From positions 1,178,001 through 1,242,000 of the forward strand of contig NZ_CP159485.1 of NCBI RefSeq assembly GCF_040515995.1: a DNA stretch of 64,000 nucleotides. Reading direction: 5' to 3'. The translations under genes and the position numbers were made by a program. Every line of letters starts with the position of its first letter. The first letter of the stretch is position 1. The notes under the pieces were generated by a model that saw nothing but the letters and a program-made list of their open reading frames with translations, was not told where the DNA came from and ran no database searches. Below are positions 53,881 through 57,296 of the stretch, one piece after another. The DNA comes from Proteinivorax hydrogeniformans. Lineage in GTDB: Bacteria > Bacillota > Proteinivoracia > Proteinivoracales > Proteinivoracaceae.

Positions 53881-53936
53881 AAAAAGAGTCCAGACAGAGC
53901 ATATTAACAAATAAGCTCTGACTGGACTTTTTTTAT
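53881..53936. terminator. Bidirectional terminator between spoIVA and the FtsEX operon
   Basis: A long stem (53883-53900 with 53914-53931, one internal mismatch) with T-runs on both sides. It ends spoIVA on the plus strand and can serve the coiled-coil/DUF3048 gene on the minus strand. Confidence 0.85.
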
Positions 53937-53961: not shown

Positions 53962-55383
53962 TTAGGGGCGGGCAATTTGAACCCATGTTTGCCCGTAAAC
54001 TCTTTCAATTTCTTGCCCATCATCATAATAAAATCGAGTGGGTGAGCTAGGACTATCTTTTTTCCACGTTCCGGTAAAATGCTGTCCCATCGAATAAAAA
54101 TCAATAGAGCCTTCTCCAACAAGCTGAGGCGTGGTGCGCCTGCGCCAATCAGTTGGATGGTCAGTGTACTGAATAATGACGTTTCTAGCCCAGATTTGCT
54201 CTCCTGTGGCATCTCTATGGGGCTCGCCGTTAATCATCCTTCTATAAGCACCTTGCTTGGCATTATACTGATATGAAACGCGGTAGGAATTACTATATTG
54301 AATAGACGTAGAATTACCCGTGTTTCCTTGCCTGCTAATATTTCCAGGTCGAACTACCGAACCTGAGGAAGGTCTAGCGGTGTTTAATGTTGATAGATTA
54401 ACATATAGATTATGTGGAGCTCGCCTATTTGAGTCGCGGTAAAAAGCTGAATGATATAAGGCATTGGTCCTGCTTAGTCCCCACTTTTCGATTCTTTCTA
54501 GATTATCCCTACTAGCACTTGCATAAACGAAATTTACGTCGTTCTCCCATGCAAGTTTAGTGCTGTGCTCTCTAGCACTACGTATAGGACCAACCTTACT
54601 TGGAAGTGTAGAGAAGAGGGCTAAATAACGGGTGGCACGACCTTCTACTTCATGTTCATAAACCAAACTTGCCTGTGATATACCATGCTGGGGTCTAGCG
54701 TTAGGACTATTATCATAAACAACCCCATAGATAGGGTTAGGCTCCGTTTGCGGAACCTGAGCCAATTCTTCTTCTAGGTTTTCCTGAGATGTTTCCAAAA
54801 GAGCATTGACCGTCTTGCGCTGCTCCTCTAGATTGCGTCTCTCAGCTTCCATTTGATAACGGCGATCTTCAATTTTTTCTCGCTGCTCTTCCATAGCTAG
54901 CTGTTGCTGTTCGATATGTTCTCTTTCTTCCCGTATAGCGCCAATTAAATCGGCGTCACGATTTAAGATCCGAGTTAAATAGGCTAACCTAACGATTAAG
55001 TCACCAAAATTATCGGCATCTAATAAAATTTCGATATATGAGGAACCACCCCTCATGTATGCACTTCGAACTCTACCTGCAAACTGTTCTGTATTTTCAT
55101 CTAGTCTTTCTTGAGCTTGCTTTAGCCTTAGCTCTGTTCGGTTTAGCTCTCTTTCAGTTCTAGAAAGCTCCTCGTCTAGCTCATCAATACGTCTTAATCG
55201 TTGGTCGATATCTTCATTAAGCAGCTCAATCATCTCTTCATGTTCGGCGATTTCTTCCTTTATTTCATCAATATTTTCCTGAGAAGAGGTTTCCGCATTG
55301 ACGTAAATATGACTGTCTATACCACTGGCTAAAGTAAAAAAGAACATGGTAGTGAGTATAACTACAGTTATAAATTTGCGCAT
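53962..55383 (-). CDS. Secreted coiled-coil (PcsB/EnvC-like) protein with a C-terminal DUF3048 domain
   Basis: A 473-residue protein: signal peptide (about 1-30, ending VNA), a long Glu/Arg/Gln-rich coiled coil (about 36-208) with the PcsB/CwlO-type 'FAGRVRSAYMRGGSSYIEILLDADNFGDLIVRLAYLTRIL' segment, then a DUF3048 (YerB-type) domain from about 218 to the end ('VVYDNSPNARPQHGISQASLVYEHEVEGRATRYLALFST', 'VGPIRSAREHS'). The N-terminal half is the partner type that FtsEX controls; normally it carries an M23, CHAP or NlpC/P60 hydrolase. Here the DUF3048 domain takes that place. ATG behind AGGAGG, 24 bases after ftsX. Confidence 0.9.
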   Translation of the reverse strand: MRKFITVVILTTMFFFTLASGIDSHIYVNAETSSQENIDEIKEEIAEHEEMIELLNEDIDQRLRRIDELDEELSRTERELNRTELRLKQAQERLDENTEQFAGRVRSAYMRGGSSYIEILLDADNFGDLIVRLAYLTRILNRDADLIGAIREEREHIEQQQLAMEEQREKIEDRRYQMEAERRNLEEQRKTVNALLETSQENLEEELAQVPQTEPNPIYGVVYDNSPNARPQHGISQASLVYEHEVEGRATRYLALFSTLPSKVGPIRSAREHSTKLAWENDVNFVYASASRDNLERIEKWGLSRTNALYHSAFYRDSNRRAPHNLYVNLSTLNTARPSSGSVVRPGNISRQGNTGNSTSIQYSNSYRVSYQYNAKQGAYRRMINGEPHRDATGEQIWARNVIIQYTDHPTDWRRRTTPQLVGEGSIDFYSMGQHFTGTWKKDSPSSPTRFYYDDGQEIERVYGQTWVQIARP

Positions 55384-55407
55384 ATTTCATCCTCCTTTCC
55401 AGCACGA

Positions 55408-56292
55408 TTATACGCGCAGATATTTGCGAATCGAAATAAAACTTCCAAATCCACTCATCAAAGTTCCTGCCACTATCAGACCTACGAAAATAGGTAAAAG
55501 TCTTGACATGTCAGTTACAGGCTGAAAAAGTAAGGTCAAGGCATCTTGAGTAAGCGAGGATGCTACCTGGCCATATATAAGGCCAAGAACAATAATTGCA
55601 ACTGTTGTTCCAACCCAACCTAGTACCATTCCTTCCAAAAGAAACGGGAATCGGATATATCCGTTGCTAGCCCCCATATACTTCATTACGCTTACTTCAT
55701 CTTGACGAGCAACTACAGAAAGTCTTATGATATTAACAATTAAAAATACAGCACCTAAGGCGATAGAAACACCGAAAATCAAAAATATAGAATTTAGGCG
55801 ACTGGTAATTTGCATCAAGCGGGCAACGAGCTCTTCTCCATAGTCCACCATTTCTACCTCGGGATACCCCTCAATAACTCTAGCGATACCATCCACCTTC
55901 TCTGGGTCACTAATACGAACACGAAATAAATCTGGAAGTGGATTGTTTTCACCCTCTAAATCTCTTAGCAAAGACGGATCACCCATGGTTTGGGCAAAGT
56001 CTTCTAACCCATCTTCTTTAGATACAAAGGTATTACTTACTACTCCTTCTAAGTTGCTAATTCTATCCTCAACCTCTGACGCGTTAACTCCTTCATTTAG
56101 AAAAACACTTATCTCAACATTTGACTCAACATCTTGTATAAACTGATTTACATTAAGAGTTACCAGTAGAAAGCCACCTAAAATAGCCAAAGAAATAGCA
56201 ATCAAACCTGAAGTGATTATTGCAAGCCATGAATTTCTTGATAAAGATGTAATGCTTTGTCGAATACAGTTTTTAAAGGCATACCTATTCAT
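55408..56292 (-). CDS. ftsX: Cell division protein FtsX
   Basis: A 294-residue ABC-family membrane protein. It has an N-terminal helix (about 22-45), an extracellular loop (about 46-165) with 'EVEDRISNLEGVVSNTFVSKEDGLEDFAQTMG', and three C-terminal helices (about 170-195, 218-245, 262-285), the normal FtsX layout with 'SVVARQDEVSVMKYMGASNGYIRFPFLLEG'. FtsX transmits the FtsE ATPase cycle to an extracellular peptidoglycan hydrolase or its activator. ATG behind AAGGAGG; overlaps ftsE by eight bases. Confidence 0.95.
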   Translation of the reverse strand: MNRYAFKNCIRQSITSLSRNSWLAIITSGLIAISLAILGGFLLVTLNVNQFIQDVESNVEISVFLNEGVNASEVEDRISNLEGVVSNTFVSKEDGLEDFAQTMGDPSLLRDLEGENNPLPDLFRVRISDPEKVDGIARVIEGYPEVEMVDYGEELVARLMQITSRLNSIFLIFGVSIALGAVFLIVNIIRLSVVARQDEVSVMKYMGASNGYIRFPFLLEGMVLGWVGTTVAIIVLGLIYGQVASSLTQDALTLLFQPVTDMSRLLPIFVGLIVAGTLMSGFGSFISIRKYLRV

Positions 56293-56971
56293 GACTATAA
56301 CCTCCTTGTTTATCTCTTGTCAGTTTTCCGCTAGATAGCGCTACTACCCGTTTTTGCATCTTGTCAACAAGGTCCCAAGCATGAGTAGCGATGACAACAG
56401 TTGTTCCTTCCTCATTAATTTTTTCAAACAACTGCATCAACTGCAAAGCGTTATCTCGGTCTAGGTTTCCTGTAGGCTCATCTGCCAAAATTAGCACAGG
56501 ATCTTTTACAATAGCACGTGCTATACCGACCCTTTGTTGTTGGCCACCGGAAAGCTCCCTAGGAAACTTATCTGCCTTATGACTAAGCCCCACCTTTTCT
56601 AAAGCATCATTAACTTTTTTATTAATTTCCTTTGGGGGACGCCCCAACACTTCTAAGGCAAAAGCCACATTCTCAAACACAGTCTTTTGCTTTAACAGTT
56701 TATAATCTTGGAACACCATCCCAATCTTACGACGATGTTCTAAAAGCTCTCTTTGGCTATAGGATGCAATATCTTTTTTATCAAAATATATATTTCCTTT
56801 AGTCGGTAGTTGTTCTCGAAACATAAGTCTTATTAGTGTACTTTTACCAGCACCACTAGGCCCGACTAAAAAAATAAAATCTCCTGAGTTAAGGTTTAAA
56901 GACATCTCTTCTAAGGCTAGGGCATTAGTACCATCGTATTTTTTGCTAACAGCTTTTATTTCTATCAACAA
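56285..56971 (-). CDS. ftsE: Cell division ATP-binding protein FtsE
   Basis: A 228-residue ABC ATPase: Walker A 'GPSGAGKSTLIRLMF', signature 'LSGGQQQRVGIARAI', Walker B 'ILADEPTGNLD', and an H-loop 'ATHAWD'. The ATPase partner of FtsX. The frame starts at GTG 56977, but TTG 56971 is spaced six bases from AAAGGAG and is more likely. First gene of the ftsE-ftsX-(coiled-coil DUF3048) operon. Confidence 0.95.
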   Translation of the reverse strand: MLIEIKAVSKKYDGTNALALEEMSLNLNSGDFIFLVGPSGAGKSTLIRLMFREQLPTKGNIYFDKKDIASYSQRELLEHRRKIGMVFQDYKLLKQKTVFENVAFALEVLGRPPKEINKKVNDALEKVGLSHKADKFPRELSGGQQQRVGIARAIVKDPVLILADEPTGNLDRDNALQLMQLFEKINEEGTTVVIATHAWDLVDKMQKRVVALSSGKLTRDKQGGYSHE

Positions 56972-56985
56972 TAACACTCCTTTCT

Positions 56986-57014
56986 AGTATCTTCCAACAA
57001 ATAAACTTCGACAA
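56986..57014 (-). promoter_or_regulatory. Possible promoter of ftsE
   Basis: On the minus strand TTGTCG (57014-57009), a 17-bp spacer and GATACT (56991-56986). It would leave a very short leader ahead of the ribosome binding site, so the call is weak. Confidence 0.35.
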
Positions 57015-57296
57015 ATTACCATATATTCCTTCTTTTTCCCTAAATAAAATGGGGTAAGGGGAGGATCTAAGCCGGGGTCAAGATCCCAGCCTTTTACGGC
57101 AGGATACTATTGCTAAAAATCACAGTTAACAGACCAAATTACAATCGCTGTTATTGCCCGAGAAATTTAATTAACATAAGTTATTGCAATATATCTCCAA
57201 AATACTAGCGTATGCTACCCAATCTGCCAAAAGAATTCTTGTTTCGACACCGACTTACAACGAAAGGTAATCGGACTAGTTTTATAAAAGAAATGC
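57015..57296. other. Intergenic stretch between ftsE and tRNA-Pro
   Basis: About 280 bases in which I see no ORF, tandem repeat or known RNA. A small inverted repeat (AAGCCGGGGTC...) at about 57069-57095 is imperfect and without a T-run. Confidence 0.5.

Follow-up and report, generated by a model that had tools for sequence, protein, structure and literature searches.

The genome of Proteinivorax hydrogeniformans encodes two FtsEX systems, the second of which is a paralogous FtsEX with its own partner, a secreted coiled-coil protein that ends in DUF3048. Most descriptions of FtsEX give each cell a single system that drives peptidoglycan hydrolysis or its activation; the two systems of this genome have different effectors, and this pattern is stable across five families. 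The reading favored here, at a probability of roughly two in three, is that the second FtsEX is a mechanotransmitter with a dedicated partner and that DUF3048 is its wall-directed effector, probably working around Spo0A-controlled division and sporulation. We know of no role for DUF3048, a widespread family, and a literature search for a known link between DUF3048 and FtsEX found none.

The second ftsEX operon and its third gene

The operon lies within the window, a 64,000-nucleotide stretch of contig NZ_CP159485.1 (positions 1,178,001 to 1,242,000). Its features, in window coordinates, are as follows.

57007..57030, minus strand: conserved Spo0A-box-like element AGGA-N13-TGTCGAA, some 36 nt upstream of the TTG start of ftsE2, with a perfect TGTCGAA box at 57007-57013
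56285..56971, minus strand: ftsE2; start TTG at 56971, alternative GTG at 56977; translation with Walker A GPSGAGKST, LSGGQQQR, and DEPTGNLD intact
55408..56292, minus strand: ftsX2; 294 aa, FtsX extracellular domain PF18075, tree clade X2
53962..55383, minus strand: fusion gene; 473 aa, with signal peptide, PcsB-type coiled coil, and DUF3048 N- and C-terminal domains
55297..55383, minus strand: Sec-type signal peptide, residues 1-29 (from sequence; model helix 2-20), with no lipobox cysteine in a lipobox scan
54757..55296, minus strand: antiparallel coiled-coil hairpin, residues 30-109 and 126-209 (AlphaFold2 model; PcsB, RipC, and EnvC matches)
54907..55122, minus strand: CC_PcsB (residues 88-159, PF24568); its tip RVRSAYMxGGxSYxExLLxAxxFGDL, where FtsX2 is predicted to grip, is conserved in 19 fusions
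54376..54744, minus strand: DUF3048 N-terminal domain, PF11258, residues 214-336; invariant N225, E243, E247, R252, R268, R271, and P323, with H324 nearly invariant
53980..54306, minus strand: DUF3048 C-terminal domain, PF17479, residues 360-468; invariant W440, with K442 nearly invariant
53881..53934, strand not given: strong hairpin, candidate terminator (-26.4 kcal/mol, z -5.87), between the convergent spoIVA and fusion genes

All three genes are encoded on the minus strand, head to tail in the order ftsE, ftsX, fusion; ftsX overlaps ftsE by 8 bases, and the fusion starts 24 bases past ftsX. An AAAGGAG ribosome site is better spaced to the TTG at 56971 than to the GTG at 56977. Because the hairpin parts the fusion from spoIVA (a match to TIGR02836) and a tRNA-Pro gene lies upstream of ftsE, the operon comprises three genes, and the hairpin is likely a shared terminator that closes it. 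Conserved linkage of the cassette to the convergent spoIVA was considered and rejected, since the cassette has different surroundings in other genera. By curated cut-offs, ATPase motifs, and extracellular domain, the FtsE and FtsX of the window belong to the cell-division type VII ABC proteins: FtsE scores 278 bits with TIGR02673 (cut-off 265), FtsX scores 271 bits with NF038347 (cut-off 225), and the PF18075 match in FtsX stands at 9.6e-21.

It had been predicted from the DNA that the third gene joins a PcsB/EnvC-type signal peptide and coiled coil to DUF3048 in place of an M23, CHAP, or NlpC/P60 domain, a claim that would fall if no profile recognized DUF3048. The protein passes the Pfam cut-offs for CC_PcsB (PF24568, 3.6e-13, residues 88-159), the DUF3048 N-terminal domain (PF11258, 4.7e-33, residues 214-336), and the DUF3048 C-terminal domain (PF17479, 5.9e-24, residues 360-468), and the prediction holds on this point. 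With both DUF3048 domains in order and the conserved residues kept, the protein is a member of the family. Domain and fold searches found no M23, CHAP, or NlpC/P60 domain; the C-terminus carries DUF3048 only, and the peptidoglycan hydrolase or degenerate M23 expected at the C-terminus of an FtsX partner is absent.

In the AlphaFold2 model of the fusion (mean pLDDT 88.7, pTM 0.63), helices 30-109 and 126-209 are linked at the tip by a six-residue helix (116-121), and a beta-rich domain extends from residue 212 onward. The second helix leads into the effector, with no separate restraining arm between the coiled coil and DUF3048. Comparison of folds returned PcsB and RipC for the hairpin and YerB for the C-terminal half. 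In a profile search, the coiled coil matched solved FtsEX partners, namely PcsB, RipC, and several of the EnvC type (4cgk, 8idc, 8i6o, 8hd0, 6tpi); in a single-sequence search, the sole significant solved relative of the fusion was Bacillus subtilis YerB (2psb, 8.5e-21). The protein is thus secreted and carries an antiparallel coiled-coil hairpin like those of PcsB and EnvC. The EnvC hairpin likewise contains a six-residue linker helix, on either side of which FtsX grips EnvC residues 114-128 and 141-160 (PMC7668044). By analogy, the FtsX2 site on the fusion would lie at about residues 95-109 and 123-142, the location of the conserved RVRSAYMxGG motif.

Distribution and ancestry

The genome (2.83 Mb, one contig) contains two FtsX extracellular domains. 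A canonical ftsE-ftsX-CC_PcsB-M23 operon lies 0.68 Mb from the window operon, and the fusion is the sole DUF3048 protein. When a profile of the fusion was run against 398 genomes of the phylum, full-length fusions were found in 19, from five families: all five genomes sampled in f1, all five in f70, seven of eight in f21, one of three in f36, and one of five in f13. Since the architecture recurs at full length in 18 further genomes, it is neither a chance arrangement nor a frameshift artifact. A contig scan with the fusion alignment yielded coiled-coil relatives only, in Halobacillus and Salimicrobium.

The ftsE2 and ftsX2 genes stand directly upstream of the fusion in 18 of the 19 genomes, the locus in G221 being cut at a contig end, and the canonical ftsE-ftsX-CC-M23 operon is present in all 19. 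Two or more FtsX proteins were found in 19/19 fusion genomes versus 12/379 others; of these 12, nine have another second FtsEX, one is contig-cut and groups with these nine by FtsX similarity, and two carry apparent contig-edge fragments. The FtsX2 proteins form one clade (support 100/100) on a long stem, and the fusion coiled coils also form one clade (SH-aLRT 100). Neighbors of the cassette vary among genera while the three genes stay together, and the cassette is therefore a conserved unit. The simplest reading of these sequences is a single, ancient origin of the fusion, which has since traveled with its FtsEX. A separate observation concerns genome G001, which has an additional CC_PcsB-M23 protein without adjoining ftsEX (L035:9203-10576).

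These results bear on the rest of the original prediction, which had DUF3048 replacing a hydrolase under the control of FtsEX. For the window operon the replacement is real, but for the cell it is not, as a complete ftsE-ftsX-CC-M23 operon is present elsewhere in the genome. Control by FtsEX is supported by architecture and by linkage, the coiled-coil partner being found beside ftsEX in five families, but as a system that does not replace the hydrolase of the cell. It had also been proposed that the idea would fail if an M23 partner of FtsX were found elsewhere and the fusion were missing from related loci; an M23 partner does exist, but the fusion is present at the related ftsEX2 loci.

Conservation of DUF3048

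Twenty-eight positions conserved in 90% or more of the standalone DUF3048 proteins served as the reference. The fusions keep 26 of these, with 25 present in 19/19, including N225, E243, E247, R252, R268, R271, H324, and W440. The exceptions include His287, present in 18/19 standalone proteins versus 3/19 fusions; G289 is kept in 12/19 fusions. When fusions are compared with each other, identity is higher in DUF3048 than in the coiled coil (for example, 66 versus 52% and 54 versus 38%). Judged from sequence, then, the DUF3048 domain of the fusion is under selection; if the family is catalytic, the loss of His287 means that the fusion may have lost this chemistry. No solved fold neighbor of DUF3048 apart from YerB was found in the PDB, and because YerB is the only one, the chemistry is not readable from structure. 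An enzyme fold for DUF3048 was sought by structure comparison and not found: the PDB gave YerB alone and viral models gave nothing; PHROGs provided nothing useful.

Standalone DUF3048 proteins occur alongside the fusion in at least seven fusion genomes, and no extra wall-binding domains were found in the longer ones. A lipobox-like motif, scored with a loose pattern, is present in 12/19 standalone proteins versus 3/19 fusions. The fusion of the window has no cysteine and consequently lacks the lipid anchor typical of the standalone forms. As read from the sequence, a standalone DUF3048 gene lies within an apparent yqfF-ybeY-dgkA-cdd-era row in two genomes (L185:66-5701, L187:67-6491).

The upstream element and Spo0A

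A Spo0A-box-like element precedes ftsE in both operons; TGTCGAA is the core Spo0A box (PMC3485338). Among the loci surveyed, TGTCGAA is found upstream of the canonical ftsE1 in 29/30, usually with AGGA 13-14 bases before it (e.g., L032, L040, L043, L126). Upstream of ftsE2, TGTCGAA is found in 5/18 loci and GTCGAA in 11/18. The background for both ftsE1 and ftsE2, taken from other genes of the same loci, is 2/506 for TGTCGAA and 10/506 for GTCGAA; related genomes were counted separately, and p-values overstate the independence of these counts. The site is imperfect in f70 and absent from 5/18 ftsE2 loci. Within this genome, the AGGA/TGTCGAA element also lies upstream of spo0A, of a SpoIID/LytB gene, and of an ireB-type gene. 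In its strict 23-base form, the element has a single genomic occurrence, the one at ftsE2. However, AGGA-N11-14-TGTCGAAW is found 18 times genome-wide versus 15 in a reversed control, and because this excess is slight, the motif serves as an argument from upstream position only.

Published work also places yerB and FtsEX near sporulation. The yerB gene appears with regulator 0A in a core sporulation list (PMC3416734), a study of Clostridium perfringens tabulates yerB among its putative sporulation genes (PMC4433262), and in B. subtilis, FtsEX influences sporulation entry via CwlO (PMC7828314). A Spo0A match was found in 17/19 fusion genomes, the two with no match being draft genomes. A role for FtsEX2-DUF3048 around Spo0A-controlled division is plausible, with both Spo0A control and timing inferred.

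Comparison with known FtsEX systems and a proposed mechanism

Like FtsEX-PcsB, -CwlO, and -RipC, the system consists of ftsE, ftsX, and a gene for a secreted coiled-coil hairpin protein with CC_PcsB, whose tip is the expected FtsX grip. In contrast to these systems, the effector is DUF3048 and not CHAP, NlpC/P60, or M23, the model lacks the linker that forms a restraining arm, and FtsEX2 is a second paralogue beside canonical FtsEX-M23. FtsEX-EnvC shares with it the hairpin with a six-residue tip helix and, possibly, a non-catalytic effector; however, EnvC terminates in a degenerate LytM (M23), whereas the fusion has neither M23 homology nor a known amidase partner. The B. subtilis lipoprotein YerB (2psb) has both DUF3048 domains and nearly all of the family-wide conserved residues in common with the fusion. 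YerB-type proteins, however, are mostly lipid-anchored and standalone; because the fusion instead combines a cleavable signal peptide with a coiled coil, FtsX2 probably takes the place of their lipid anchor.

In the model favored for the second FtsEX, FtsE2 would bind and hydrolyze ATP, and FtsX2, which by homology and the matching clades is expected to grip the hairpin tip, would transmit the movement to it. The long second helix, running into DUF3048, would then place or expose that domain at the cell wall, as known FtsEX systems suggest. There, DUF3048 would act on peptidoglycan or an attached polymer, or else would activate another enzyme of the wall, as EnvC does through its inactive LytM; since the fusion model has no separate restraining arm, control must differ somewhat from that of EnvC. 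FtsEX2-DUF3048 would probably work beside canonical FtsEX-M23, around Spo0A-controlled division and sporulation.

That DUF3048 is a wall-directed effector is most likely, given the logic of the system and weak neighborhood evidence. In f70, genes for an SLT transglycosylase or a DUF4015 glycosyl hydrolase adjoin the cassette (L081:4738-6459, L082:12562-14313, L085:5713-7452, L087:9328-11040), and in two f70 genomes, two standalone DUF3048 genes adjoin murJ, which encodes the lipid II flippase (L189:1413-4490, L191:1591-4794); these murJ and hydrolase neighbors are few and stand without a background comparison.

Alternative explanations

It is quite possible, at somewhat under even odds, that the DUF3048 of the fusion has no catalytic activity and serves as an adaptor, equivalent in Gram-positives to the degenerate LytM of EnvC; once exposed by FtsEX2, it would recruit a distinct wall hydrolase or synthase or activate it. 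EnvC provides a precedent (PMC11627006), SLT and DUF4015 enzymes adjoin some cassettes, and 16/19 fusions have lost the His287 that is near-invariant in standalone proteins, although the other conserved residues stay. However, the remaining conserved polar residues are almost all retained, which would equally suit an enzyme or a ligand-binding site, and no one neighboring enzyme is conserved across families. The cluster of invariant polar residues, retained in standalone and fused forms, together with an effector that is more conserved than its tether, argues for DUF3048 being itself an enzyme that acts on peptidoglycan or on a glycan linked to it and that FtsEX2 switches in the manner of PcsB, CwlO, and RipC; among FtsX partners of Gram-positives and mycobacteria, those studied to date do terminate in a wall enzyme. 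Given that no fold or sequence link to a known enzyme was found and that His287 is mostly lost in the fusions, an enzymatic DUF3048 is put forward tentatively and with some doubt.

A different explanation takes FtsEX as a reused power stroke and has FtsEX2 and DUF3048 perform another envelope task, such as the handling of teichoic acid, lipoproteins, or lipids, with peptidoglycan not the target. A third FtsEX type, which terminates in an LmeA-like, possibly lipid-binding domain, indicates that the chassis need not serve peptidoglycan, and standalone DUF3048 genes have mixed neighbors. Nevertheless, ftsEX2 and the canonical ftsEX1 have the upstream element in common, and none was found in the third type (three loci checked); this explanation is considered unlikely. 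Finally, the two partners coexist in one cell and have the CC_PcsB tip in common, and the fusion might act as a decoy, competing for canonical FtsX with the M23 partner and so damping hydrolysis. This is highly improbable: the fusion is co-inherited with a dedicated FtsE2 and FtsX2, and the separate clades of the coiled coils match those of the FtsX proteins.

FtsEX with other effectors

The fusion and the third type together suggest that FtsEX is a chassis with exchangeable effectors. A broader proposal, speculative enough that it is held with less than even confidence, is that FtsEX provides a general power-stroke chassis, that on at least two occasions it was duplicated and given a new effector, DUF3048 in one case and an LmeA-like domain in another, and that DUF3048 is a new class of FtsEX-driven wall effector, also active in free YerB, which acts at Spo0A-started sporulation. 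YerB/DUF3048 thereby gains a concrete hypothesis that can be tested in B. subtilis, linking it to FtsEX, wall remodeling, and Spo0A. The same findings suggest that FtsEX partners are better sought by their coiled coil than by hydrolase domains.

The third type was detected in 13 genomes through extra FtsX domains, and its FtsX3 is a separate, far clade. The partner gene, seen in 12 of these genomes and cut in the thirteenth, precedes ftsE and encodes CC_PcsB followed by a C-terminal domain, with no hydrolase. The loci are as follows.

L139:2671-5378, L140:3042-5739, and L141:4537-7228: third-type FtsEX loci
L169, L170, L172-L175, and L177-L179: third-type FtsEX loci
L176: third-type FtsEX locus, cut

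Similarity of the C-terminal domain to LmeA is weak and was seen in 4/12 partners (best 9.2e-5). The model of a third-type partner consists of a hairpin and a beta domain, and a fold search with it matches PcsB and EnvC.
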